Assembly: GCA_023512255.1 (NCBI GenBank)
Contig: JAILZY010000059.1
Location: forward strand, 1-22,748
Length of the DNA stretch: 22,748 nucleotides
From: a bacterium
GTDB lineage: Bacteria > SZUA-182 > DTGQ01
Reading direction: 5' to 3'
The notes under the pieces were generated by a model. It was given only the letters and a program-made list of their open reading frames with translations, searched no databases and was not told where the DNA came from. Below are positions 76-22,748 of this stretch, piece by piece. A program made the translations under genes and the position numbers. Position 1 is the stretch's first letter. Each line of letters opens with the position of its first letter.

Positions 76-115
76 GATCTGAACTTATGGTTTTTAAATT
101 TTTTTTTCTTTATGG

Positions 116-121
116 TATAAT
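116..121 (+). promoter_or_regulatory. Probable -10 box of the chaperone operon
   Basis: A consensus TATAAT lies 46 bases before the start codon of the Hsp70 gene, in a very T-rich stretch just outside the terminal repeat. The -35 region (around 93-98, tttaaa) is weak, so a sigma-70-type promoter is likely but not certain. I see no CIRCE-like inverted repeat, so heat-shock control by HrcA is not indicated. Confidence 0.5.
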
Positions 122-167: not shown

Positions 168-2534
168 ATGGGAAATCGACTAACTTCCTTCCTTTTTGGC
201 AAGGAAGAGAGGGAAAGAAAGATAGGCAAAGCCATAGGGATTGATCTTGGCACAACCAACACCGTGTTTGGGATTAAGAGGGTTCATACCGAAATCCTAA
301 AGAATGCCGAACAGGAAGAGCTTACCCCATCGTGTGTTACTTATCGAAATAAGAAGTACATTGTTGGTCGGGCTGCTCTAGCTTGGAGGAAACAGGATCC
401 TGAAAACACTATTGTCTCCATCAAGCGAATCATTGGGCGCAGTTTTACTAATGAAGAGGTGCAGAAAATAATAAGGGAACATAAGGTAAGCTACCAGATC
501 AAACCCCTGTCGACCGGTACCGAGCAGAGCATAGCAGTGGTGTTAAATGGCCGAGAGCACACGCCGGAGTTTATTTCCGCCCTGATTTTGAAAAAAATCA
601 AACAGGATGCTGAAAAAACCCTGGGCGAGAAAGTAACTCACGCCGTGATTACCGTGCCCTCATATTTTGACGACAAGCAAAAACATGCTACCAGGGCCGC
701 CGCGGCCCAGGCTGGTTTCAAGGTACAGCGGCTTTTGCCGGAGCCGACAGCCGCGGCCATCTCCTTTGGTGTTGACCAGACGCGGGACAAAAGTATCAAC
801 ACCATCCTAGTCTATGATTTCGGCGGCGGCACATTTGATATTTCAGTTCTGACTATGGTTGAAGGGCAATTCATCGAACAGGCCAAGGGTGGGGATATGT
901 GGCTTGGCGGCAATGATATCGACAACCTCCTGGTGGAGCATGTCTTTGGCCTGATCGAAAAGGAATATCCAGGGATAAAGGTCAAGGAGCTGATCGAGAA
1001 ACTTCCCCCGGAGATGAAAAACCGCTTTCTGGGTGAAGTGCGGGAAAAAGTGGAGAGAGCTAAGATTCAACTAAGTGAGCAGGAGACAGCTTACTTTGAC
1101 CTTCTGGGCATGTTAAAAGATGAAGAGGGGAATATTCTGAATATTGAGGTGGAAATTACCCGTCGGGAGTTTGAATTCCTGATTTCGCCCCTGGTTGAAA
1201 GAAGCATTAGCCTTATGGACGCCCTATTGGAGGGGCTTCACTATACTCCGCAGATGATAGATAAGGTGCTCCTGGTTGGCGGCTCATCCTGCATTCCGCT
1301 GGTGCAGAGGAAGGTGGCGGAAAAATATGGTGCCGACAAGGTCATGATCCACAAAAAACCTATGCTCTCGGTGGCTGAAGGAGCAGCGATTCTCTCTCAT
1401 CGGCTTTCGGAAAGCTACGAGTGCCCAGGGTGCGGGAGAGAGGTGAATCAGAGTGATAAAATTTGCAACCGCTGCGGATTTGATTTGGATAAGTATTTGA
1501 TAGAAACCGGCGTGGTTGATATTGTTCACTCTGCGGCCCATGACTACTACATCTGCTTGGAAAATAATCCCCGCTATCTTCTGGTGGCTAAAAATACCCC
1601 CTTGCCGGTAGAAAAAACAGAAATTTTTCGACTGGTTGACCCGGATCAGAAACTAGTTCATCTCAAATTCTTCAATCTAGTGAATGACAAAGAAGAGCCT
1701 ATCGGCGATCTATGGCTTGGCATTGGTGAGCAACCCTCCCAAAAGCAGCTAGCCGCAGATGAGAAGAACAAGGAGGTTAAGCCAGAAGAGATAATCTGCA
1801 ATTTTCGGATCGATGAAAATAATATTATTGAGGTATCAGCCAGAATGAAAGATCGGCCTGAGATTCAGATCTGCCGGACACTGTCGCGAGGGAAGGCTGA
1901 TGAGAAGCTGTTTTTGGCTCTTGAGGAAACCATCCACAAGGCCAATGCCGATCAACATCAGTTCTATGCAGTTTATGAGCTGATCCATCGCTCGGTTGAT
2001 ATTATTCAGGATATCAACCAGATCGTTGATCCTGAGACTGGAGAGGTCAGAGAGGATAGATACCAGCAGGCTAGGCAAAAGCTTGATAAGGCCAAGAAGA
2101 TGCTAGAGCATGATGAATCTGTCCGGGGAGTAATCAATTATGCCAAACTGATGTTGAATAATTATCAGCCCCTCATTGATCCACAGGGAATAGAGGTCTT
2201 GGAAAATACGCTCCAGAAACTTGAGAAAAGCGATAGCGAGGGAAGCTATGAGGAAACTATCTCCTTGGTTGAAGAATTAGATGCTGAGATAAAAAAGCAT
2301 CAGATGGTCGTGATGTTAATAGAAATGGAAAGAGCCTATAACTACTATCGAGAGCATAACTCTCCAAAGGCTGAGCGTATTTTGACCTATCGAGATAATA
2401 TTGTGCAGAGTTTGGAGAGATTAGATCTTTCCAAGCTTACCTCTTTGCTTGATGAAATCATGCCAGAAGTCGTTGAAGTTGCAGAAATTGAAAGATCCCA
2501 GAAATTAACGGTAGAGAAAGGAATAACCAAATAG
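168..2534 (+). CDS. Divergent Hsp70 (DnaK-family) chaperone with inserted zinc ribbon, 788 aa
   Basis: ATP-dependent chaperone of the Hsp70 family. The nucleotide-binding domain is well kept: phosphate-1 motif IGIDLGTTN at 23-31, phosphate-2 motif DFGGGTFD at 217-224, adenosine motif LVGGSS at 369-374. A CxxC-x10-CxxC zinc ribbon (C419, C422, C433, C436) follows directly, before a segment VVDIV that sits where the hydrophobic linker of DnaK would be. A poorly conserved beta-type substrate domain and a long helical C-terminus follow. At 788 residues it is longer than DnaK (about 640), it has no DnaK-like tail, and it has a charged N-terminal extension of about 20 residues. Start: ATG with AAGGAGA 8 bases upstream. 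First gene of a five-gene operon; the next gene starts 2 bases after its stop. This is not the housekeeping DnaK; clients are unknown. Confidence 0.93.
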   Translation: MGNRLTSFLFGKEERERKIGKAIGIDLGTTNTVFGIKRVHTEILKNAEQEELTPSCVTYRNKKYIVGRAALAWRKQDPENTIVSIKRIIGRSFTNEEVQKIIREHKVSYQIKPLSTGTEQSIAVVLNGREHTPEFISALILKKIKQDAEKTLGEKVTHAVITVPSYFDDKQKHATRAAAAQAGFKVQRLLPEPTAAAISFGVDQTRDKSINTILVYDFGGGTFDISVLTMVEGQFIEQAKGGDMWLGGNDIDNLLVEHVFGLIEKEYPGIKVKELIEKLPPEMKNRFLGEVREKVERAKIQLSEQETAYFDLLGMLKDEEGNILNIEVEITRREFEFLISPLVERSISLMDALLEGLHYTPQMIDKVLLVGGSSCIPLVQRKVAEKYGADKVMIHKKPMLSVAEGAAILSHRLSESYECPGCGREVNQSDKICNRCGFDLDKYLIETGVVDIVHSAAHDYYICLENNPRYLLVAKNTPLPVEKTEIFRLVDPDQKLVHLKFFNLVNDKEEPIGDLWLGIGEQPSQKQLAADEKNKEVKPEEIICNFRIDENNIIEVSARMKDRPEIQICRTLSRGKADEKLFLALEETIHKANADQHQFYAVYELIHRSVDIIQDINQIVDPETGEVREDRYQQARQKLDKAKKMLEHDESVRGVINYAKLMLNNYQPLIDPQGIEVLENTLQKLEKSDSEGSYEETISLVEELDAEIKKHQMVVMLIEMERAYNYYREHNSPKAERILTYRDNIVQSLERLDLSKLTSLLDEIMPEVVEVAEIERSQKLTVEKGITK

Positions 2535-2536
2535 GG

Positions 2537-3460
2537 ATGCCAAAAACTAAACAGTATTGTCCGATCTGTGGGAAAGATCAGATCGGGCCGGATCAGCAGC
2601 GCTGTCCTCAGTGCGATGCGGACCTGACCTGCTTTTGGGTTTTAGATGCCCTGCCGGAGCAGAGTGAGGTGGTGGCTAGCCCTTTGGGAATCAGGAAGAT
2701 GAAGATATGGGGGCTGATAGGGGGCGGGGTTTTAATCCTGCTGGTCGTCAGCCTTGGTTGGATGCTTTATCAGAATCATAAGGTGGCCAGGACTCTGGCG
2801 GATAATCAAAACAGGCTGGAGCAAGTTAACAGGACCATGCTAGCTTTGGTGGAGAAGATTGAGGCTGAAAAAGAAGTCATGAAGAAAGAGGCCTTCCTGC
2901 AAAAGATCAACAGCCAGCAGAGGGCTTCAGAAAGCAAAGATCTTGAGCGTAGAGCGCCTGAGGCAAAGCCTGAATCAAGCCAAATAAAGCCCGAACCAAG
3001 TCAAGTAAAGCCCGAACCACGCCAGGTGGTCAGGCAACCACCGCTATCTCGGCAGACTCGGATCGTCAGACCGAAGCAGGAGCAGCGGCCATTCTTTTGG
3101 TATGAAACCACAGATAAGGATACTCTGTGGTCTATTGCAGACCGCTTTTATCACAATGGTCGATATTATCCGGTATTGCTGGTTATGAATCCGCAGGTTA
3201 GCCTCTATGAGATAAAAGCTGGTCAGCGACTTAAGATATTGAAAAATCCAAAGGATGCTGTATATGTCTTCAATCGCTCCATTGTCCGACAGGGCTCGGT
3301 TGTTTTCTTTTGGTACCAGATCCAGCCAGGAGATAGGCCGCAGACCTTATCCAGAAAATTCTACCGAGCCGAAGATCAGTATTCTATAATCGAAAAACTG
3401 AACCCCAACCTTCGCTTTGAGCCTGGTCAGAGGATTAAAATTTGGCTACCAGATCTTTAA
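2537..3460 (+). CDS. Membrane-anchored zinc-ribbon protein with two LysM domains, 307 aa
   Basis: I do not recognise a named family for the whole protein. Domains in order: zinc ribbon CPIC...CPQC (C8, C11, C23, C26); one hydrophobic segment at about 57-78, preceded by RKMK; a charged, probably coiled-coil stretch at 80-130; a Pro/Glu/Lys/Gln region with a 7-residue repeat (KPEPSQV type) at about 140-165; a LysM-like domain at about 189-235; a second LysM-like domain at about 255-305. With the positive-inside rule the ribbon would be cytoplasmic and the LysM domains outside, where LysM usually binds peptidoglycan. The start is 2 bases after the Hsp70 stop, suggesting translational coupling. 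Its ribbon resembles in spacing the one inserted in the Hsp70. Inferred role: tether between the chaperone and the envelope. Confidence 0.85.
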   Translation: MPKTKQYCPICGKDQIGPDQQRCPQCDADLTCFWVLDALPEQSEVVASPLGIRKMKIWGLIGGGVLILLVVSLGWMLYQNHKVARTLADNQNRLEQVNRTMLALVEKIEAEKEVMKKEAFLQKINSQQRASESKDLERRAPEAKPESSQIKPEPSQVKPEPRQVVRQPPLSRQTRIVRPKQEQRPFFWYETTDKDTLWSIADRFYHNGRYYPVLLVMNPQVSLYEIKAGQRLKILKNPKDAVYVFNRSIVRQGSVVFFWYQIQPGDRPQTLSRKFYRAEDQYSIIEKLNPNLRFEPGQRIKIWLPDL

Positions 3461-3493
3461 ACCCGACCTAAATAACTTTTAAGGGAATCAAAC

Positions 3494-5665
3494 ATGAACC
3501 AGAATCTTCAGCCAAAGGAAATAAAATATAGCCAAGGGTGTCCGAAGGATGATGGTGAAAGGAGGAAAAGATATCGAGAACTCCTAGAAAAAGGAGAAAA
3601 ACTTTTCCAAAAAGAAAAATTCGGATCAGCTAAATATCATTTCGACCAAGCTTACCAGATCTGCCCATCGGAAGAGATTCGGCAGCGAATTCAGCTCTGT
3701 GAGGAAAATGCTCAGAGGATGTCCCAGGCTCAAGCTTTGGTGAGCCAGGGGTATCAACTTGAGCGGGAGAAAAAGCTTGAGAGTGCACTCAAGGTTTTTC
3801 AGCGCTCTCTAGATATCTGGGATAATAAAGAAATCCAACTGGTTGTGGCCAGACTGCGGGCCAAATTACCCAAACCAACCCTTGCCCCTGCTTATCAGGC
3901 TGAGGCTGAGCATCGCTATGAGGAAGCTATAGCACGCTATCGGGAGGTTTTGGAGCTTCAGGATAATCCGCAGGTCAGGGATCGTCTCGGAATCTGCCTG
4001 GTGAAGAAGGGGGCCTATGCTGAGGCAGCCAATATCCTTGTCTCGTCTTCCTCACAGGAGCCAGAGGTCCTGTATTATACAGGATATGCCTTGGCCAGGA
4101 TCGGACACTACAGTGAGGCCATTAAGCGATGGGAAGCGATCGGTGAGAATGGGTCAGAGTTGGCTCGACAGAGAGAGCAGCTTATTGAGATTGCAGTCAG
4201 TGATCTTATCGACCGAGCAGCAGGGGGGGAAGGAGAATTTGAGGCCGCTTACCAGGAAGCAGTTAATCTACTCAGATGCTGTCCTGACCATCCTATGGTT
4301 AGTGATTGTGTTAGGTTGATGAGTCTTGAGCATCTTGAGCACCTTTGGGCTGGGGAAAAATTCGAATCCATGCTGCAATTTCTCTTATCAATAGAGACAG
4401 AAAGAGGAGAGAGCGAGGAATTTTTGCCCTTTATGTTAGCCAAGGTCTACTTTCGGCTGGCTGAAGGATCGGCTCAGTACCTGAGGCCAGCTATTGCCTT
4501 TTGGCTGACGGTTATCTATAACCCGAAATACCAGCTACCTTCTAGACTTAAGGCTGAGAGCTTGAGCCCTACTGCTGCCATCGAGGAGCAAAAGCAGCTC
4601 ATTTTTGATCTTGAGCATAAGCTTGAGGAATTGGTTACAGAGTATAAACTTAGCCAGGGAGAGGAAAGCCTGAAAGAGGTCCTGATCCATTGGGAGATGG
4701 AGCGGCAAGCGATTACCTTTCTTTATGAGGCGGCCAAGGAGGAAGAGTCGCTGGCTGAAATCCTGTGTACGCCAGCCTTTGCCGAGCGCTTTGGTCTATC
4801 TTCGCTGGTTCTTGGGAGATTACGCACCATAAAACACCGGTGGGAGCAGGATGAGCAGTTTTGGATTGTAGGCGCCTCGTTCTCTTTGGCCCGCTCAAGT
4901 CTTCTGCTGCTGAATCAGGGCAGACTAAGAGAGGCTTTGGCTGCCTTGCCAGCCAAAGGAGAGAGTGGAGATAGAGATGATGAGTTTGTTGACTACTGCC
5001 GACAGAGGCTTTTTTTGCGGCTTGGCATCGAGAAATTGCGAGCGGGAGAGGTGGCCAATTTGAAGAGATATTTCACTCAGGCTACTCCCCTGATTCAGCG
5101 GTTTAAAAAGTATGAAACAGAGATTGTTCAACTTGCTCAGGAAATTCCATTTGATCCGCAGAGGCTGATCAGTATGGATGAAGTGCTTCAGAGTTTAGTC
5201 CGCCACATAAAATCTAAGCAGCTTTTGGATATCGCCTCTTATATCATGAGCTACAAAGCCAATGTCCTGCATGGTGAAGGATTGATCACAACTCAGGATG
5301 CGGAGCGCATTTGCCAAAAGGCCCTAGAGCTTAATCCGGATAATGAATTTGCCAAAGATGGGCTCAGGGAAATGGAGCTTCATTATAAAATAGAGGATAT
5401 GGCCAAAGCATTGCGCAAGGGAAATTTGAAAAAAACAGCCGATATTGTTGCCAGCTCACAGAATGAGGAGATAAAAGAGACTTTTTTTAACCTTATTGAC
5501 ACTATTCTCTATGAATTTGAATCTATGCCCTCATCTAAGGAAAAGAAGATTGCTTTTTTAGAGGAGCTGTATCAGCAGTGTGAGAAGGTCGATACTGAGC
5601 ATCCTGTTCTATATGATATTTTGGATAAGATGGAGGCTGTGGAGGAGGAGGATCGCTCATCATGA
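3494..5665 (+). CDS. Large TPR-type helical repeat protein, 723 aa
   Basis: Cytoplasmic all-helical protein; no signal peptide or membrane segment is visible. TPR-like units with A/G/Y/F/A spacing are clearest near the N-terminus (about 28-62 and 78-112, the second with LESALKVFQRSL), at about 133-200 (EEAIARYREVLEL, then AYAEAANIL, then YSEAIKRWEAI), and near the C-terminus (ICQKALELNPDNEFAKDGL, about 610-630). The middle is helical but diverged. TPR proteins act as scaffolds, and in several chaperone systems they bind Hsp70 or its clients, so here it is probably the adaptor or platform of the Hsp70 module. Start: ATG with AAGGGA about 8 bases upstream. The last 4 bases overlap the next gene (ATGA), showing tight coupling. 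Specific function is unknown. Confidence 0.87.
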   Translation: MNQNLQPKEIKYSQGCPKDDGERRKRYRELLEKGEKLFQKEKFGSAKYHFDQAYQICPSEEIRQRIQLCEENAQRMSQAQALVSQGYQLEREKKLESALKVFQRSLDIWDNKEIQLVVARLRAKLPKPTLAPAYQAEAEHRYEEAIARYREVLELQDNPQVRDRLGICLVKKGAYAEAANILVSSSSQEPEVLYYTGYALARIGHYSEAIKRWEAIGENGSELARQREQLIEIAVSDLIDRAAGGEGEFEAAYQEAVNLLRCCPDHPMVSDCVRLMSLEHLEHLWAGEKFESMLQFLLSIETERGESEEFLPFMLAKVYFRLAEGSAQYLRPAIAFWLTVIYNPKYQLPSRLKAESLSPTAAIEEQKQLIFDLEHKLEELVTEYKLSQGEESLKEVLIHWEMERQAITFLYEAAKEEESLAEILCTPAFAERFGLSSLVLGRLRTIKHRWEQDEQFWIVGASFSLARSSLLLLNQGRLREALAALPAKGESGDRDDEFVDYCRQRLFLRLGIEKLRAGEVANLKRYFTQATPLIQRFKKYETEIVQLAQEIPFDPQRLISMDEVLQSLVRHIKSKQLLDIASYIMSYKANVLHGEGLITTQDAERICQKALELNPDNEFAKDGLREMELHYKIEDMAKALRKGNLKKTADIVASSQNEEIKETFFNLIDTILYEFESMPSSKEKKIAFLEELYQQCEKVDTEHPVLYDILDKMEAVEEEDRSS

Positions 5666-5928
5666 ACCCTTATAAAATTTTGCAAATTGCCCGGGATGCT
5701 AGCCAGCAGGAGATTGTCCAGGCAGTGGCCTTGGCTCTTCAGAGAAAGGATTATTCGGTCCGGCAGGTGGCTGAGGCTCAAAAAACCCTAATGGACCCAA
5801 GGGCTAGAAGGGTAGCTGAATTCATTTATCTTCTGGATAGTCAACGGTGGGCCCAGGGCTTGAGCTTGCCTAAAGAGCGATTGAGCCTTGACCGCCTTGA
5901 GCTTATTCATTGTTTTGATAAATTTTAA
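5662..5928 (+). CDS. Small J-domain-like protein lacking HPD, 88 aa
   Basis: Residues 1-56 follow the outline of a J domain: NPYKILQIARDASQQEI resembles J helix I plus the start of helix II, and AEAQKTLMDPRARRVAEF resembles helix III with the DP..R motif. The central part with the invariant HPD is missing: the helix II-III segment (residues 24-35) is short and reads RKDYS. HPD is required for J proteins to stimulate Hsp70 ATPase, so this may be a binding-only or inhibitory J-like protein. A GGAGGAGG run about 10 bases upstream serves as ribosome binding site, and the gene overlaps the preceding TPR gene by 4 bases. The position between TPR and GrpE-like genes in an Hsp70 operon supports the J-like reading. 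Alternatively it is an unrelated small helical protein. Confidence 0.75.
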   Translation: MNPYKILQIARDASQQEIVQAVALALQRKDYSVRQVAEAQKTLMDPRARRVAEFIYLLDSQRWAQGLSLPKERLSLDRLELIHCFDKF

Positions 5929-5947
5929 TTTAAAGGCAATTGGCTCA

Positions 5948-6415
5948 ATGTCAGACGCTTCTCAGCATAGAGCTAAGGAATTTCTACGCCGCAGGCTGAT
6001 TGATTTTCAGAAGCGGATTGCAGACCTTTCCTTTGCTCTGGCCTCTCTTCAGAATGATCATCAGCAGTGGGAAAAGGAATTTTACCTAGAGCTTTTCGAG
6101 GTTCTCGATTCATTTGAGAATATATTTCAAAGTATCGAAGAAAGGGAACCTCAGTGGGATAAATCTGCTCGGGCAGCCATGCAGAGCTTTCGCTCTATCT
6201 ATCGGAAGATTTTGAGAATGCTTTCTCAGCGGGAGGTAGAGCAGATTGAATTTCCCGATCAGAGGGCAGTCTTCGGTCTATGCCGGGTGGTAGAAACCAA
6301 AACCGTGCCTGGGATGGAAAATGAGCATATTCTGTCTGTTTTGCGAAAAGGATATCGGAAAAAAAATGGTGAGATCCTTCGTCCGGCTGAAGTAATTACG
6401 GTTTTGAATGGCTGA
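5948..6415 (+). CDS. GrpE-like nucleotide exchange factor, 155 aa
   Basis: Nucleotide exchange factor for Hsp70. The C-terminal half has the GrpE beta-domain pattern: E(Q)IEFPD...VVETKTVPGMENEHI, then LRKGYRKKNGEILRPAEV (about 135-152), which matches the GrpE signature around VLQKGY...LRPA. The N-terminal half (1-75) is a charged helix suited to the GrpE dimer coiled coil, shorter than in E. coli GrpE (197 aa in total). I chose ATG at 5948, 19 bases after the J-like gene; an upstream in-frame TTG at 5888 would add 20 residues and overlap that gene. Last gene of the operon; the next gene is 176 bases away. It is probably dedicated to the Hsp70 of this operon rather than to the housekeeping DnaK. 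Confidence 0.85.
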   Translation: MSDASQHRAKEFLRRRLIDFQKRIADLSFALASLQNDHQQWEKEFYLELFEVLDSFENIFQSIEEREPQWDKSARAAMQSFRSIYRKILRMLSQREVEQIEFPDQRAVFGLCRVVETKTVPGMENEHILSVLRKGYRKKNGEILRPAEVITVLNG

Positions 6416-6591: not shown

Positions 6592-7350
6592 ATGGTTCAT
6601 AGGGTGCGGTTTAAACTTTTGGTTATTGTTTTCTTATTGGCAGCTACCTCAATGGTTGTGGTTCATCGGAGGAGTGCTCAGGCCTATTATGGCTTTGGCG
6701 GCCTCTATGGAGCAGCCGGGCTTTATGGTGGGCCCTATGGTGCTGGGCTTTATGGCTATGGTGGGCTGGGATTATCCGGGCTTTACGGATTGGGGGGATT
6801 AGGGTTATACGGCCTCGGCGGTCTTGGTTATCCATATGGGCTATATTATCTTGGGAATGGTGCGCCAGCCCTGGATAGAGTCGCCGATGTTCTCCTCACC
6901 ACCGGTGGAGGGACAAGCACTCTTTTGTCTACCATAGCTGCTACGGCTCCGGTTATCCCCACTGTGACTGTTACCATCCCTATTTATCCTGATCCTACGG
7001 GTACCTATTACGGTAGTTGGACCAGCGCCTTAACTTCCACCACTAATGTCATGACCATGAGCCTTGTTTATGATATTCTGACCGTTTCCATTACTGGAAC
7101 AGCCGGGCTGCTAACCAATAAGCTCATTCCGGTAGCTATCAATGTGGCTGGCTTTAATAATGCTCCTACCTTCACCTTGAGCGGCACTTACTCGAATCCA
7201 CTCACCCTGGTTACCTATACTCTGGATTTGACCTGCACCTTCACTCCGGCGACCTTGACTCTTCCAGCCATTATTCAGGGAACTTACTTTATTCATGACT
7301 CGCTGTATCTAAGAATTGATGCTGGTAATTTTTCCGTAGGACGGCTATAA
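6592..7350 (+). CDS. Secreted Gly/Tyr/Leu-rich protein, 252 aa
   Basis: Not recognised. A signal peptide is clear: basic start MVHRVRFK, hydrophobic core, probable cleavage after SAQA (about residue 31). Residues 32-85 are low-complexity repeats of GLYG, GLGG and PYG. Residues about 115-252 are Thr/Val/Ile-rich with alternating polar and hydrophobic residues (GTYYGSWTSAL, FTLSGTYS, GTYFIHDSLYLRID), suggesting a beta-sandwich or small beta-barrel. Start: ATG with GGGAGG 9 bases upstream. A strong terminator follows at 7397. It is unlikely to share a function with the chaperone operon upstream; a surface or matrix protein is the best guess. Confidence 0.8.
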   Translation: MVHRVRFKLLVIVFLLAATSMVVVHRRSAQAYYGFGGLYGAAGLYGGPYGAGLYGYGGLGLSGLYGLGGLGLYGLGGLGYPYGLYYLGNGAPALDRVADVLLTTGGGTSTLLSTIAATAPVIPTVTVTIPIYPDPTGTYYGSWTSALTSTTNVMTMSLVYDILTVSITGTAGLLTNKLIPVAINVAGFNNAPTFTLSGTYSNPLTLVTYTLDLTCTFTPATLTLPAIIQGTYFIHDSLYLRIDAGNFSVGRL

Positions 7351-8206: not shown

Positions 8207-8238
8207 GGAAGGAACCCTTTTTCAAAAGGGTTCCTTCC
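8207..8238. terminator. 15-bp inverted repeat containing the metallopeptidase stop codon
   Basis: Arms 8207-8221 and 8224-8238 are exact reverse complements with a 2-base centre. The TGA of the minus-strand metallopeptidase is at 8224-8222, so its last codons (KEPF) are inside the stem. This is probably the terminator of the minus-strand gene, or a repeat that inserted into its 3' end and replaced the original C-terminus. Confidence 0.65.
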
Positions 8239-11200
8239 TTATGGCTGAGATGAAGCAGGTTCCAAGGCTGCTGTCATTCTCCTGGTAGACAATTCCAGCC
8301 CGTGTTTTTGGATCATATGGAGTGGCATAGACATAATCGGATGATTCACTCTCCGTGCCATATTTATTATATGACTTGACCTTGAGCACATAGGTTGTTT
8401 CATTGGTCAACCCGGTAATGGTAAAGGAAGTAGTATTTCCAGCATCTTTTTGAACGCTAGGATCTTCTCTGCTGGTTTCAATATCATTTTCCGTCCGGTA
8501 ATAGACATGGTAGCCTACGATATCCTCATCAGGAGGAGCCTCCCAAGTCAGGTGCACGGCCCGGTCGCTTACCGTAGCCACAGGATTGGTGGGAGCAAGG
8601 GGAATTCTGCTGATGCCATGTTTGCCGAACTGGTCTTTGATCATAATCGCCGTGTTCTGGTCATGATAGAGGCGGCTCTCTTGATCTAACACCGCTTGCA
8701 GGTAATCGCAAAAGCTTGTAGCTCCAGCATAGCGGGCCTTGTGGAAGATAATGTCGGCAATTTTTTCGCCTCCTTCTGCCGCTAGCTTCTTTCGGACATC
8801 CCACATGGCCTGAGACAGAATCAGACTGTTGGCATAAGCATCATCACCGTAATCATCTGGATATTTCAGAGGCCGATCCTCATCGGTGTTTAGGTTTCGG
8901 ACATAGTCATGTCCTATCCAAAAGCCGCCGTCGCCGATCTTGGCTCCATCAATGCCGTTAGCGGGATCATGGGTTAAAGCCGCTGCCCAGTAGTCGGAGA
9001 AGGCCTCATGCATGGCGTCAAGCTCGGTGGTAAATTGAGGCTGCTGTGTGGTCGTATCTGTGCTGGTAGTAGCAAGCCCTGGGTCAGCAGGGGGCAGGAA
9101 GAAGGAGTAGAAACTCTCAGTGATCGCATGTGTGTATTCATGGTAGATGATATCGGCAAAGAGGGAAAAGTCGCGATATCCATCCACTTTGCCATCTCCT
9201 TCTCCGAAGTAGATCCGGTTTTCTGGAGTCCAGAAGGCATTGGTATAGTAGTCTCCCCATTTGACGACAGCTTTTATGGGGCCCTTTTTCCCACCTCGCC
9301 ACATGCCATCGTATTTACTGTCAATCTCCTTGATATAGCGCAGCATCCTGTTGATATGGTAGTAGACGTTTAATTCATTATAGCTGCTGATGCGAAAATA
9401 GACGCTGAGGCTATTAGGATCGGCAGGCGCAATAGCATTATTCGGATTTTCAGGATCCCAGATAAAGTAGGTATAGTTAGGATCTTGAAAATCCGGATCA
9501 TTAATGTTTTCAACTACCCAGACAGCATCCCAGCTATCTTCGTTATACACCTCTACGTATTTTCCGGCCAGTTTGGCGGCAATGACCAGTTTGTTCGGGA
9601 AAACCTTCTTCCCCAGCCAGGTAGCTGGAAATTGGAAGTTTCCACTGGCATCGGTTTTAAAATTTCCTCTCACGGTGTCATTGGGGTTGATGAGGCTTTC
9701 TAGGATGTCGATATCGTCGATATTCCAGCCGCAGAAAATTCCTGAGCTGTCAGTTGGCCCCATGCCCCAGCGGAGGCGAATCTCTTGACTACTATTATTG
9801 ATGAAAGGAGAAACATCAAAAAGTTGGAGATTCCAGCCGCTACTCCCCTCAAGATAGAAAGGATCCTCAATTTGACTTGTGGCATTGGACCAGACCGTAT
9901 CCCAGGTTATGCCGCGATTTGCGGAAATTTCAACTGAGGCACGATCAAAGCTGGTGCGATTCCCTAAGTCATCTTCAGAATACTCTTTATAGACTCCCAG
10001 CCAGCGCCAAAATCGCAGAATCAGTTTAGACCCACTGCTTGGGGTGAAGCTGATGGGGGGGGTGGTCAGATAGGTAGGCCGCATCAAATTGGTGTAGTCT
10101 CCCGCAAGATTATACCCGAAAACCTTTTGCCCTGTATGACCTTTGTCAGGATCCAGGGGACCACCGTGCCCGCTGGCCATCAGTCCGGATAGATCAGCCA
10201 GTGGTGTGGGCTGGCCATACCCCCATAATCCTTGCGCTTTCCAGCCAGCAGGAGGGGTATCGCTATCCTCAAAGAGAGCCTGAAAGATCGGTTCGTTTTT
10301 ATTCATTAGATAGACGTATAAATCTGGCAATCCCACTTCAGCCGGTGGATCATTGTAGAATTGGGGTAAAACCTTGCCCCTGATTGTCCCTGATATTCCT
10401 GCTCGAGAGCGCCTTAAGCGGCTAATAATTTGCCCACTGCGGGCGTCCACAAAATAGCGCCATATGCCCTCTGGCATATCCAGCATCCAGACTAAAAAGT
10501 ATTCTAAGTTATCTTCAAACCGGGCGGGCAGGATAACCAACTCACTCTGGCTTTCTCCGCCACTTTCCGCTGGGCTGCTAGTGCCAAGATGCTCACTTAC
10601 TATTTGCCGAGCTTTGGCCTCATCAATCAGTGGCCTTGTCTCAAGCTCCTCTATTCCCGGATAGGAATCTGCTCCGAAAGAAAGCAGGCGGTATGAGTCA
10701 TCAAATTGAAACCAGATCCGGCTTCCATACACAGGAATATTCTGGTATACTTGCTGGAAATCGACATAGAAAATCCCTGATTGCTCAGCTACCCTGACTA
10801 GTTGAATTTCAGACTCTCCCAATCGAAATAGGTCTCTATTCTCCTCCACGAATTGAGTGGCATAATCAATCAGCTCATCTTCGCCCCCAAAGAGCCTTCG
10901 CCATATTCCTTCCCCGAATGAGGGTGGGATAATCCGGCTAACCCGATGAGGAGTGCCGGTTATGGTGTTCCAGGAAGAAACCTGCCAGGCGTCGCTATTA
11001 CCCTGCCTGCGGATAAACCTTTGCCAATTCTGCCTTCTCAGCTCTCTGGCTGCCTCTTTGGCCGCGGCCTGCTCTCTCTTATCCCTTGCCCTTCTTTCTC
11101 TAGACCGTTGGACAAAATAGGTATAGTTACCCCCTGGCTGCTCAGAGGGGGGAAGAAAAGCCAAGACAGTGCCTGCAAGCCCAAGATTTGCTAAAATTAC

Positions 11201-11266
11201 ACTCAAAAGCAAAAGTAGCCCTGCCGCTCTCTGCCACCATCTTCTCCTTCTCCGCTCCGAAATCAT
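8222..11266 (-). CDS. Secreted thermolysin/fungalysin-like zinc metallopeptidase, 1014 aa
   Basis: Secreted zinc endopeptidase. Numbering is from the ATG at 11266, which has GGAGG 6 bases upstream; a second ATG lies one codon earlier. Residues 1-36: signal peptide (poly-Arg start, leucine-rich core, cleavage near VLA). About 165-195: FTP-type propeptide segment (DFQQVYQNIPVYGS). About 345-525: jelly-roll, MAM-like or immune-inhibitor-A-like insert ending in GWNIDDIDI. Catalytic motif HEYTH at 709-713, third ligand probably E754 in MHEAFSDYW. About 892-985: fibronectin type III domain. The 41 residues between second His and Glu are more than in thermolysin (20). It has its own intergenic region, so it is probably monocistronic. 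Likely a nutrient-degrading exoenzyme, self-activated by propeptide removal. Confidence 0.9.
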   Translation of the reverse strand: MISERRRRRWWQRAAGLLLLLSVILANLGLAGTVLAFLPPSEQPGGNYTYFVQRSRERRARDKREQAAAKEAARELRRQNWQRFIRRQGNSDAWQVSSWNTITGTPHRVSRIIPPSFGEGIWRRLFGGEDELIDYATQFVEENRDLFRLGESEIQLVRVAEQSGIFYVDFQQVYQNIPVYGSRIWFQFDDSYRLLSFGADSYPGIEELETRPLIDEAKARQIVSEHLGTSSPAESGGESQSELVILPARFEDNLEYFLVWMLDMPEGIWRYFVDARSGQIISRLRRSRAGISGTIRGKVLPQFYNDPPAEVGLPDLYVYLMNKNEPIFQALFEDSDTPPAGWKAQGLWGYGQPTPLADLSGLMASGHGGPLDPDKGHTGQKVFGYNLAGDYTNLMRPTYLTTPPISFTPSSGSKLILRFWRWLGVYKEYSEDDLGNRTSFDRASVEISANRGITWDTVWSNATSQIEDPFYLEGSSGWNLQLFDVSPFINNSSQEIRLRWGMGPTDSSGIFCGWNIDDIDILESLINPNDTVRGNFKTDASGNFQFPATWLGKKVFPNKLVIAAKLAGKYVEVYNEDSWDAVWVVENINDPDFQDPNYTYFIWDPENPNNAIAPADPNSLSVYFRISSYNELNVYYHINRMLRYIKEIDSKYDGMWRGGKKGPIKAVVKWGDYYTNAFWTPENRIYFGEGDGKVDGYRDFSLFADIIYHEYTHAITESFYSFFLPPADPGLATTSTDTTTQQPQFTTELDAMHEAFSDYWAAALTHDPANGIDGAKIGDGGFWIGHDYVRNLNTDEDRPLKYPDDYGDDAYANSLILSQAMWDVRKKLAAEGGEKIADIIFHKARYAGATSFCDYLQAVLDQESRLYHDQNTAIMIKDQFGKHGISRIPLAPTNPVATVSDRAVHLTWEAPPDEDIVGYHVYYRTENDIETSREDPSVQKDAGNTTSFTITGLTNETTYVLKVKSYNKYGTESESSDYVYATPYDPKTRAGIVYQENDSSLGTCFISAIRKEPF

Positions 11267-11583
11267 CATCCACCTCCGACCCAATATGATTGATTATGTT
11301 ATTGATTATGTTGGCGAACATTTATGATGAATAAATATAGTATGATGAATAAATAAGAACAGACACCTTGGGCGACGAGAAATAGTTGCTTATATAGCCA
11401 TCAATTAAGGTATGATAGCAAATTAAATGCCAAAAGAGGAGGCTGTGATCGTTGCTGATTTTGTTGACCATATAAATCAGCCGCACTAGTTAGGAAAAGA
11501 AAGCTAGAATTCTTTGATATATTTTGGTGCAGCAGGAAGATTAGGAGCGGAAAAGCGCACCGATCGCTCTGCTCCACAGGCCC
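11267..11583. other. 317-base intergenic region with direct repeats, upstream of the metallopeptidase
   Basis: No gene is supported here. It holds a perfect 12-bp tandem duplication (attgattatgtt at 11289-11300 and 11301-11312), a 15-bp direct repeat (tatgatgaataaata at 11323-11337 and 11341-11355, period 18), and an 8-bp stem (11454-11461 with 11474-11481). The AT-rich repeats lie just upstream of the metallopeptidase start and could be operator or promoter sequence. On the plus strand a purine-rich GAGGAGG (11436-11442) is followed only by 8 to 15 codon frames. Confidence 0.6.
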
Positions 11584-20108: not shown

Positions 20109-20142
20109 TCTTATCTTTAGACCAGTCTTATCTTTAGACCAG
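20109..20142 (-). repeat. 17-bp tandem duplication across the radical SAM stop codon
   Basis: The 17-mer tcttatctttagaccag is present at 20109-20125 and 20126-20142 without a mismatch. The second copy holds the last codons and stop (20134-20136) of the minus-strand radical SAM gene. The duplication therefore leaves the protein unchanged and repeats its end in the 3' flank. Confidence 0.9.
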
Positions 20143-21516
20143 CGGTGGTGAATATTCCAGAGGCCGCCGCACCTGCGAGCCATGACGGATCGAGAGGATG
20201 ATCTGCACAGGCCGTATTCTCTCATCAACTTCCTCGATATCCTCAGGACTCATGGATCGAGTTGCATAAAACCATTCGCGGTTGCGAAAAAAACCCGGCT
20301 GGTCAACCATATCGATTCTTAGTTTTTGCGCTCTCTCAAGTTCATCCCAAAGAATAGAGCCAGGGATTGGCCAATACCATTGAAGATAAATTCTCACTCC
20401 ATAGTCCAGAATAAGATCGGTTATAAATTGCAAGGTATTGAGGCAGTTTTCTTTGGTATGCCAGGGGAAGCCGATAATGAAGCTAAAAACGGTTCTGTAG
20501 TTTAAATGATACTGTTGAACGTTTTTAGCTGCCTGCCGGATCAGCTCAGGGGAGACAGCCTTATGGATTCTTCGGGCTTCATCCTGGCTGATCACCTCTG
20601 CCCCGGCAAGAAGGTCGCTGGTAAAAGGCTCTAAGGCTTCAAGCAGCTCCTCATCCCTCAGATCATCTATAGTGGCATCATAGGTCAGCCGGCGGCGGAA
20701 GTCATCCCCAGGCAGCATTTTACACAGATCCAGGATTCGCTTATGATCGGCAGTGAAGATATTGTCAACGATATTTATCTTTTTACTGCGAGTCTTCTGG
20801 CAATAGGGAAGTGCATATAGGAGCTGTTCGGCCGCGGTTTCGGCTGGATAGGCCCGCCAGTTTCTGTGTCCGATGGTTGAGCAAAAGGTGCAGTTAAATC
20901 GACATCCACGCGAGGTCAAAACTGGTATGGTTCCATATTGGGAATCAGGGATAAGATCATAGGCAGGCCGCCAGTCAAACTGGGTCAGATCAGACTCTTG
21001 AATGACCTGAGCAGAAGAGGAAGCTGCGGCCACCCCCTGCTTGATCAGAACAAGACCTGGAATCTGCTGCTGTTTTTCTGACTGCAATACCTCATAGACC
21101 AGGTGAGCCGAGCGATCCGCCTCTCCCCTGAAAAGGGCATCAAAGTATCCGCTGGCGATGACCGATTGAGGATAGCAGGTTGGGTGCGGCCCGCCGATAC
21201 AGGTTTTGATTCTAGGATCGCGCTCTTTGACCTTTTGGGCCAAAATCCTGGCTGTTGCCCAGTTGAGTGAATTGGCACTCAGCAATATTACCTCATAGCT
21301 GAGCAGTTGATCAATAACCTGATCGAGCGAAAGCTGAGGCAAAGCTACCCAATCCAGCACCTCACACGGATACCCTTTTCGTCTAAGATGAGCTGCTAGA
21401 AGGTATACGCCAAGTGCCGGACTGTCGCGATAGGAATCCTGCATAGAGGGGATCAGCCGATTATCTACGTAACACATAACTGGACAGCTGACCACAACAC
21501 ATGGCTTTTGCCCCAT
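20134..21516 (-). CDS. B12-binding radical SAM protein, 460 aa
   Basis: Radical SAM enzyme with an N-terminal cobalamin-binding-type domain. Residues about 30-145 form the Rossmann-like B12 fold, with GGPHPT at 108-113 and FRGEAD at 129-134; the DxHxxG lower-ligand motif is not seen, as in many of this class. Radical SAM cluster motif CRFNCTFC (C205, C209, C212), preceded by PVLTSRG. The rest has NIVDNIF and FSFIIGFPW, typical of the radical SAM barrel. Length fits the class. Start ATG has GAGGAG 9 bases upstream. Such enzymes do methylations, ring changes or other C-C chemistry; the substrate cannot be read. It lies 274 bases downstream of a small NHLP-like protein gene on the same strand, with a hairpin between, so peptide modification is a reasonable guess. 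Lipid or cofactor chemistry are alternatives. Confidence 0.9.
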   Translation of the reverse strand: MGQKPCVVVSCPVMCYVDNRLIPSMQDSYRDSPALGVYLLAAHLRRKGYPCEVLDWVALPQLSLDQVIDQLLSYEVILLSANSLNWATARILAQKVKERDPRIKTCIGGPHPTCYPQSVIASGYFDALFRGEADRSAHLVYEVLQSEKQQQIPGLVLIKQGVAAASSSAQVIQESDLTQFDWRPAYDLIPDSQYGTIPVLTSRGCRFNCTFCSTIGHRNWRAYPAETAAEQLLYALPYCQKTRSKKINIVDNIFTADHKRILDLCKMLPGDDFRRRLTYDATIDDLRDEELLEALEPFTSDLLAGAEVISQDEARRIHKAVSPELIRQAAKNVQQYHLNYRTVFSFIIGFPWHTKENCLNTLQFITDLILDYGVRIYLQWYWPIPGSILWDELERAQKLRIDMVDQPGFFRNREWFYATRSMSPEDIEEVDERIRPVQIILSIRHGSQVRRPLEYSPPLV

Positions 21517-21718: not shown

Positions 21719-21806
21719 GCCCCTAGCTTACGGTTAACCCTAAAGCAGGGCAGTAAGAGTGATCAGTAGGATTGCTCCCCTCTGTCCCCCCTAGCTCACG
21801 GTAACC
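21719..21806 (-). repeat. Partial duplication of the 3' end of the precursor-like gene
   Basis: The end of the gene at 21791 (cccctagctcacggtaacc, 21788-21806) occurs again 67 bases away as cccctagcttacggttaacc (21720-21739), differing by one substitution and one inserted base. Both copies have an attgc nearby on the left. It may be the trace of a tandem copy of the gene's end, or a chance similarity of about 19 bases. Confidence 0.5.
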
Positions 21807-22183
21807 TTCTGCTCATCCTCAGGTGCAGGCAGATTCGAGGATCCTTGAAAGATTGCGGCCACCACAGCCACGGCAACAATATATTGAGGCCCTTGCCCCA
21901 ATATTCTGGACTGGCCGGATGCCCGGCCCTCAGCTCTACGATGTCCGAGAGCCACCAGCACATCTTCGTCGGTAATCCTTCGAGAATCCTTGCTCAAGAC
22001 CTGGATACCAACCCTAGCCAGAGTTTCCTGCAGATTATCCCTGAATCTTCTGGCCAGCTCTGGATCTCGCACCATATCACGGACCAGATTAGCCATCGCC
22101 TCCGGTGAATAGGCAGAGGTGAAGGTAAATGTTATCTGAGAATCGGGTAATACAAAGACATTTTGCTCTCCCTCTCTTTTCAT
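21791..22183 (-). CDS. NHLP/proteusin-like putative peptide precursor, 130 aa
   Basis: Hypothetical small protein. Residues 25-66 (SPEAMANLVRDMVRDPELA, then RRFRDNLQETLARVGIQVL) resemble the NHLP leader pattern of nitrile-hydratase alpha-chain-like precursors: a helix with D-P, L, R/F, then L-x-x-x-G-I/L. ITDEDVLVALGHRR (70-83) ends the leader-like part. A Gly/Ser/Arg linker (84-98) leads to a short hydrophobic Val/Ala/Ile stretch YIVAVAVVAAIFQGSSN (101-117) and an acidic tail. There is no Gly-Gly cleavage site and no Cys. Start: ATG at 22183 with AAGGAG upstream; a TTG at 22204 is less likely. A radical SAM gene follows on the same strand. It could equally be a small regulatory or membrane-associated protein, so the precursor role is an inference. 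Confidence 0.6.
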   Translation of the reverse strand: MKREGEQNVFVLPDSQITFTFTSAYSPEAMANLVRDMVRDPELARRFRDNLQETLARVGIQVLSKDSRRITDEDVLVALGHRRAEGRASGQSRILGQGPQYIVAVAVVAAIFQGSSNLPAPEDEQKVTVS

Positions 22184-22243
22184 GATCTTCTCCTTACTTA
22201 TCAATTATTAAGACAACCAAATACACAAACATTTTATCTCCTA

Positions 22244-22673: not shown

Positions 22674-22748
22674 CAGATGTTCCCCATGTTGAAAAAATAA
22701 TGTTGAAAATATAAAGGGGAGGAGAGAAAATAAAGAGAGAAGAAAGTT
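22674..22748 (-). repeat. Right copy of the 75-bp perfect terminal inverted repeat
   Basis: Exact reverse complement of bases 1-75. It ends the window, so the true length of the repeat beyond 75 bases is not visible. See the left copy. Confidence 0.95.

Follow-up and report, generated by a model that had tools for sequence, protein, structure and literature searches.

A conserved five-gene bacterial operon appears to encode a chaperone machine built on a zinc-ribbon Hsp70 and a J-like protein without HPD

A 22,748-nucleotide contig of a bacterial genome (JAILZY010000059.1 in assembly GCA_023512255.1; the whole contig is termed the window here) contains a five-gene operon that appears to encode a separate, undescribed chaperone machine. 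The operon, at positions 168–6415, codes for a divergent Hsp70, a zinc-ribbon membrane protein, a tetratricopeptide repeat (TPR) protein, a small J-like protein and a GrpE-like factor. The same five genes in the same order are present in 15 genomes, at 12 complete loci and 3 loci truncated by contig ends; because of this recurrence, the block is confirmed not to be a chance arrangement. The five-gene observation is thus stronger than in an earlier interpretation of the window (the sequence-only reading), which had proposed a second, dedicated Hsp70 machine tethered to the envelope and which, taken as a whole, is partly supported by the present analysis. The host assembly comprises 3.83 Mb at 96.6% completeness, and the window is its contig 52.

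All features of the operon lie on the plus strand, and the open reading frames (ORFs), gaps and overlap agree with those described from the sequence. The Hsp70 gene (168–2534) encodes 788 residues matching Pfam HSP70 (3e-98). It is followed after a 2-nt gap by the membrane-protein gene (2537–3460), whose product comprises an N-terminal zinc ribbon, one transmembrane (TM) helix, a coiled linker and two LysM-like domains. A 33-nt gap separates this gene from that of the TPR protein (3494–5665; 723 residues; Pfam TPR_2, 3e-11), which shares a 4-nt ATGA overlap with the J-like gene (5662–5928; 88 residues; Pfam DnaJ, 8e-5, below the Pfam cut-off). The GrpE-like gene (5948–6415; 155 residues; Pfam GrpE, 3.7e-12) begins after a further 19 nt. 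The five family assignments made earlier are therefore upheld by Pfam matches, with a sub-threshold match for DnaJ and a weak one for the zinc ribbon of the membrane protein. Against a congener of the host, the ratio of non-synonymous to synonymous substitution rates (dN/dS) is 0.09–0.26 for four of the five genes; dS has reached saturation in the J-like gene.

In the congener G001, the five genes are complete, and three downstream neighbors are shared with the window as well. G003, from the same family as the host, carries the block in a different context, ending at a contig end; it is one of the three truncated loci, together with G1138 and G1146. A scan of GTDB genomes recovered the block from two further carriers, an Elusimicrobia bacterium and Desulfamplus magnetovallimortis (Thermodesulfobacteriota), and it is carried as well by G414 (Thermodesulfobacteriota) and nine more genomes from the family of Desulfamplus. 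The samples yielded 3 of 386 relatives (the host genome being one of the three), 2 of 395 genomes, 1 of 294 genomes and 10 of 86 genomes in the Desulfamplus family, a prevalence that is a lower bound, as the pattern scan of genome contigs was non-exhaustive and missed G414. At most loci neighboring operon genes abut or overlap, and the genes flanking the block differ from lineage to lineage; therefore, the five genes are the unit. Over 395 genomes, an independent profile of the TPR protein matched exactly the two genomes matched by the Hsp70 profile. Furthermore, the five proteins diverge in step, their pairwise identities correlating with r of 0.87–0.96 over 11 genomes, of which a part reflects shared ancestry that alone would also give such values. 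Comparison of the loci shows the five genes to have been inherited together in a fixed order across deep lineages. A mobile-element origin was rejected, as the operon has no match among plasmids, phages and viral contigs.

The operon Hsp70, termed ZR-Hsp70 after its zinc ribbon, belongs to the Hsp70 superfamily (PF00012, 3e-98), with the DLGTTN and DFGGGT motifs and the Lys and Glu residues kept in 14 members. Their ATPase residues are intact, among them the arginine that corresponds to R167 of DnaK. It reaches 318 bits with the DnaK equivalog model TIGR02350 (cut-off 822.55) and 286 and 289 bits with the HscA models (cut-offs 708.55 and 620), and is thus neither DnaK nor HscA by model score. 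In the tree, the 14 ZR-Hsp70s stand on one side of a 100/100 branch against the DnaKs, on a long stem. The chain consists of a nucleotide-binding domain (NBD; residues ~21–414), the zinc ribbon (419–440), a part resembling the beta subdomain of the substrate-binding domain (SBD-beta; ~448–575), a helical C-terminal domain (576–777) and a basic tail. The NBD aligns along its whole length with DnaK, the chain after the ribbon aligns to SBD-beta, and the helical domain was modelled with a predicted local distance difference test (pLDDT) score of ~75–92. A PDB search with a profile of the C-terminal half gave zinc fingers and DnaK SBDs, with weak E-values only. The tail holds a candidate docking motif, (V/I)xK(G/D)(I/V)x(K/R), at 2511–2531, conserved in 14/14 members.

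The ribbon (1422–1487; C-x2-C-x10-C-x2-C-x-[FL]-D-L), unmentioned in the sequence-only reading, sits in the Hsp70 itself, at the linker between NBD and SBD, and is the second one of the operon. Its four cysteines are invariant in the 14 aligned ZR-Hsp70s. The linker VLLLD, or a near variant, is found in all 14 canonical DnaKs, whereas 14/14 ZR-Hsp70s lack it and have instead the ribbon followed by a GVxDIVH-like stretch. In addition, the catalytic Glu is immediately preceded by Asn in the 14/14 canonical DnaKs compared and by Pro or Ser in 14/14 ZR-Hsp70s; we found no paper in the open-access literature that treats DnaK R167 and N170 together, and assign the change no role.

The carriers of the operon also possess canonical DnaK. 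In the host, contig C3 holds canonical dnaK, grpE and dnaJ with an htpG-like gene, and contig C114 holds a second canonical-looking grpE. A canonical DnaK above the TIGR02350 cut-off is encoded in 15/15 operon-carrying genomes, and in none does the operon Hsp70 reach that cut-off. The sequence-only reading had held that a second, dedicated machine would be contradicted if the five families did not co-occur elsewhere, or if this were the only Hsp70/GrpE of the genome. Because the families co-occur in order elsewhere and the carriers keep a separate canonical DnaK, the proposal is well supported. Other Hsp70-related genes were seen in the host. On contig C12 (L047, 7722–9976), a GrpE-like gene (247 residues) overlaps an Hsp70 gene (504 residues), forming a second non-canonical pair in which the Pfam match of the short Hsp70 ends after the ATPase domain. 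On contig C62 (L050, 9363–12371 and 13611–15473), two genes related to Hsp70, one or both encoding DUF3731, flank a tryptophanyl-tRNA synthetase-like gene.

The J-like protein has the four-helix J-domain fold. Its profile matches canonical J-domains (HHalign E 1.5e-6), and its AlphaFold2 model, with a core pLDDT of 92–96, retrieves almost exclusively J-domains from the PDB, which fill the top ranks with Foldseek probability near 1, though with E-values of 0.03 and up, and Z up to 8.8. Solved structures matched by a sequence search with the profile were designed coiled coils at E 0.02 and worse, and were taken as noise. The HPD motif expected of a functional J-domain protein is absent from 12/12 aligned members and from a 13th (L084) read in frame by eye, and the loop expected to hold it is shortened. 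The protein is thus of type IV (pseudo), defined as a recognizable J-domain with the HPD non-conservatively replaced (PMC13254874). In canonical DnaK, His33 of the HPD touches L391 of the linker, and Asp35 touches R167 (PMC8215388, PMC13012618). Since His33 contacts L391, and here the linker is a ribbon and the J-fold is without HPD, both halves of the canonical latch, HPD and linker, are altered, as judged from the alignments. We infer that the linker change and the HPD loss are co-adapted.

The GrpE-like protein is a GrpE family member (46.7 bits against the Pfam cut-off of 25.8; PDB GrpE 4ani, 2.3e-6) that aligns to the canonical GrpE of the host and conserves the beta-wing. TPR models match the TPR protein in all 5 members scanned; it is without a TM segment or signal and is likely a scaffold. 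In G003 the TPR gene (L046, 472–2642) is split by a frameshift, reflecting either assembly error or gene decay.

In the membrane protein, the N-terminal ribbon (CPIC...CPQCDADL; 2558–2614) is preserved as CPxC...CPQC in 13/14 members as annotated; in the 14th (L084) it lies in the same frame upstream of the first ATG. A single TM segment (2711–2767), with a mean Kyte-Doolittle hydropathy of 1.9–3.1 over 19 residues, is predicted in all 14 members, and the other four operon proteins look soluble. The LysM region (3116–3418) comprises LysM 1 (residues 194–234; Pfam LysM 2.6e-7, 30.9 bits against a cut-off of 20.9) and LysM-like 2 (residues 260–294; LysM2_NFP 2e-5). Each of the 6 members scanned first had LysM, and 11/14 membrane proteins have its DTLW motif.

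These features enable us to propose a putative model, to which we lean, of one dedicated Hsp70 machine separate from DnaK. The membrane protein and the TPR scaffold would bring the Hsp70 to the inner membrane on its cytoplasmic side, perhaps via ribbon–ribbon contact or the conserved Hsp70 tail. There, the J-like protein would serve as an adaptor or pseudo-J, and ATP hydrolysis might be triggered by something besides the HPD–linker latch or, in trans, by a J protein of the canonical kind. Subsequently, the GrpE-like factor, with putative exchange activity, would reset the Hsp70 cycle. The clients may be membrane or envelope-bound proteins handled at their exit or assembly site, as in mitochondrial import, a class suggested because of location alone. 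With rather less assurance, we suggest a further bacterial Hsp70 type beside DnaK, HscA and HscC, recruited to the membrane, in which the HPD–linker latch would be abandoned on both sides, the linker having become a zinc ribbon and HPD having vanished from the J partner, and ATP hydrolysis would come under a new zinc-ribbon/J-like/TPR contact.

Several points weigh against this model. The interactions, localization and clients proposed for the machine are putative, and zinc binding by the ribbons is predicted. The full-length Hsp70 model (mean pLDDT 68) resembles DnaK structures overall and is too poor for details; because of this, the position of the ribbon within the Hsp70 is known from sequence alone. 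For the membrane protein we infer an N-in topology, with the ribbon inside and LysM, where present, outside, which the flanking charges (3 K/R before the TM segment, 2 after) favor weakly. Beyond the five genes, the loci of different lineages have no neighbor in common, and hence no client is indicated; the quality control of surface or secreted proteins suggested in the sequence-only reading stays a conjecture. Finally, G1140, G1143 and G1146 have lost the LysM part and kept the ribbon and TM segment. LysM was thus rejected as a defining feature, the conserved core being zinc ribbon plus TM segment; the proposed tethering to the envelope is supported at the sequence level, by a TM segment in every member and LysM in 11/14. 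Therefore, membrane anchoring is the conserved function and wall contact is optional.

The same operon could alternatively constitute an envelope-sensing switch, in which the LysM/TM protein reads the state of the cell wall and the Hsp70–TPR pair, instead of folding proteins, switches signalling or sequestration according to the bound nucleotide. LysM in most members, a TPR protein of large size, a pair of zinc ribbons that could sense redox state or zinc, and the want of an HPD for a classical folding cycle would all suit such a role. However, SBD-beta and a dedicated exchange factor, needless for a pure switch, are retained, three members are without LysM, and neither the operon nor its surroundings show a recurrent regulator or output domain; we consider the switch unlikely. 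Still less probable is that the general cytosolic chaperone was simply duplicated and the copy put to use under heat or another stress, with incidental partners. Every gene is of a known fold and these genomes often carry additional Hsp70s, but a mere duplicate fits poorly with a distinct long-stem clade, an invariant linker ribbon, an HPD missing in all members and a five-gene order fixed across deep lineages. A weaker point concerns the promoter: the site upstream of the operon (93–121, plus strand; TTTAAA, 17 nt, TG-N-TATAAT) is sigma-70-like and not heat-shock-like, matching the consensus at 10/12 positions with a perfect extended -10. Promoter-like matches across the region are not clearly above those in shuffled sequence, so that its service to the five genes is suggestive only. 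A biological-conflict (defence-like) module akin to the GAP1-N2 systems is most improbable, for although the distribution is patchy (2/395, 1/294 and 10/86 genomes) and Hsp70 with GrpE and DnaJ/TPR is known from conflict systems (PMC7159879), no GTPase, GAP1, FNIII or effector gene was seen on inspection of the operon ORFs, plasmids, phages and viral contigs gave no match, and a defence system was rejected for want of a convincing PADLOC family match.

Several features lie elsewhere in the window. Directly after the operon (6592–7350) is a gene for a secreted-looking protein with long Gly/Tyr/Leu repeats (GLYGGLYG); a similar one lies at L047 1659–2480, about 5 kb from the second GrpE–Hsp70 pair. 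As a client of the operon this protein was rejected, for it stands beside the operon in the congener only and not at other operons. The minus strand encodes a secreted thermolysin-like (M4) peptidase of 1020 residues with an FN3 domain (8222–11284), which is beside the operon in the congener too, and a B12-binding radical SAM protein (20134–21516), whose best NCBIfam model is ApyD, from the biosynthesis of ribosomally synthesized and post-translationally modified peptides (RiPPs), at a sub-cut-off 6e-26. Adjoining the latter (21791–22204, minus strand) is a gene for a 130–137-residue peptide with a weak match to leaders of the thiazole/oxazole-modified microcin (TOMM)/nitrile-hydratase kind (E 0.058), and the two genes may form a possible RiPP cluster. 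No RNA family was found in the window. The contig was probably broken at a repeat, because its ends (1–75 and 22674–22748) form an exact 75-bp inverted repeat.

The proposed machine can be set beside several known systems. With canonical DnaK–DnaJ–GrpE it shares an Hsp70 ATPase with SBD-beta, a J-fold partner and a GrpE-type exchange factor. It differs in the ribbon that replaces the linker, the missing HPD, the added TPR and membrane partners and its coexistence with the canonical set; unlike canonical GrpE, its GrpE-like protein scores far below the GrpE equivalog cut-offs. The mitochondrial import motor comprises mtHsp70, Tim44, Pam18, the HPD-less Pam16 and Mge1. Like the machine proposed here, this motor combines a membrane-recruited Hsp70 with a GrpE-type factor and a J-fold protein devoid of HPD (PMC13254874), whereas the operon is without an equivalent of the HPD-bearing Pam18, and its anchor and scaffold are of other folds. 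The resemblance indicates how the machine may work, as a functional analogy with no claim of homology.

Among bacterial systems, Escherichia coli HscC with DjlB/DjlC likewise brings together a divergent Hsp70, a partner bound to the membrane and a J motif other than HPD, and the proposed machine may work in a somewhat similar way. DjlB and DjlC are J proteins tail-anchored at the plasma membrane with the motif HPE, and HscC is without the GrpE signature and thought not to use GrpE (PMC8215388). By contrast, the complete operons each have a GrpE-like gene and no Djl-type protein, the anchor is a zinc-ribbon protein and the HPD is entirely gone; this comparison is one of gene content and motifs. 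Myxococcus xanthus SglK (MXAN_6671) is an extra Hsp70 with an adjacent-numbered GrpE, GrpS (Mxan_6672), and roles in extracellular fibrils and social motility (PMC8265645, PMC10313047). Unlike the operon Hsp70, SglK belongs to the PRK00290 type of DnaK and rescues a dnaK mutant of E. coli, and the accounts consulted describe no zinc-ribbon, LysM or TPR partner. The GTPase-centred GAP1-N2 conflict systems have similar parts, Hsp70/GrpE/DnaJ/TPR (PMC7159879); inspection of ORFs in and beside the operons, made without a GAP1 or DO-GTPase profile search, revealed no DO-GTPase, GAP1 or FNIII. SglK/GrpS and GAP1-N2 thus share parts with the operon, and as far as their descriptions extend, they are without a ribbon-linker Hsp70, the anchor or the gene order. 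A search of open-access full texts, with subscription journals mostly outside it, found no description of the five-gene set. According to a 2026 review, whether HPD-less J proteins are accidental or selected, and how they act with Hsp70, is unresolved (PMC13254874). The operon presents a conserved bacterial case of such a protein, in which Hsp70, exchange factor and scaffold come together and the linker, as the Hsp70 counterpart of the HPD, is also changed. It thus offers a compact five-protein system, available in at least one described species, for direct tests of Hsp70 control by HPD-less J proteins and of Hsp70 recruitment to membranes. Three bacterial Hsp70s are usually recognized (PMC8215388), and the machine, if true, would add a type to them.

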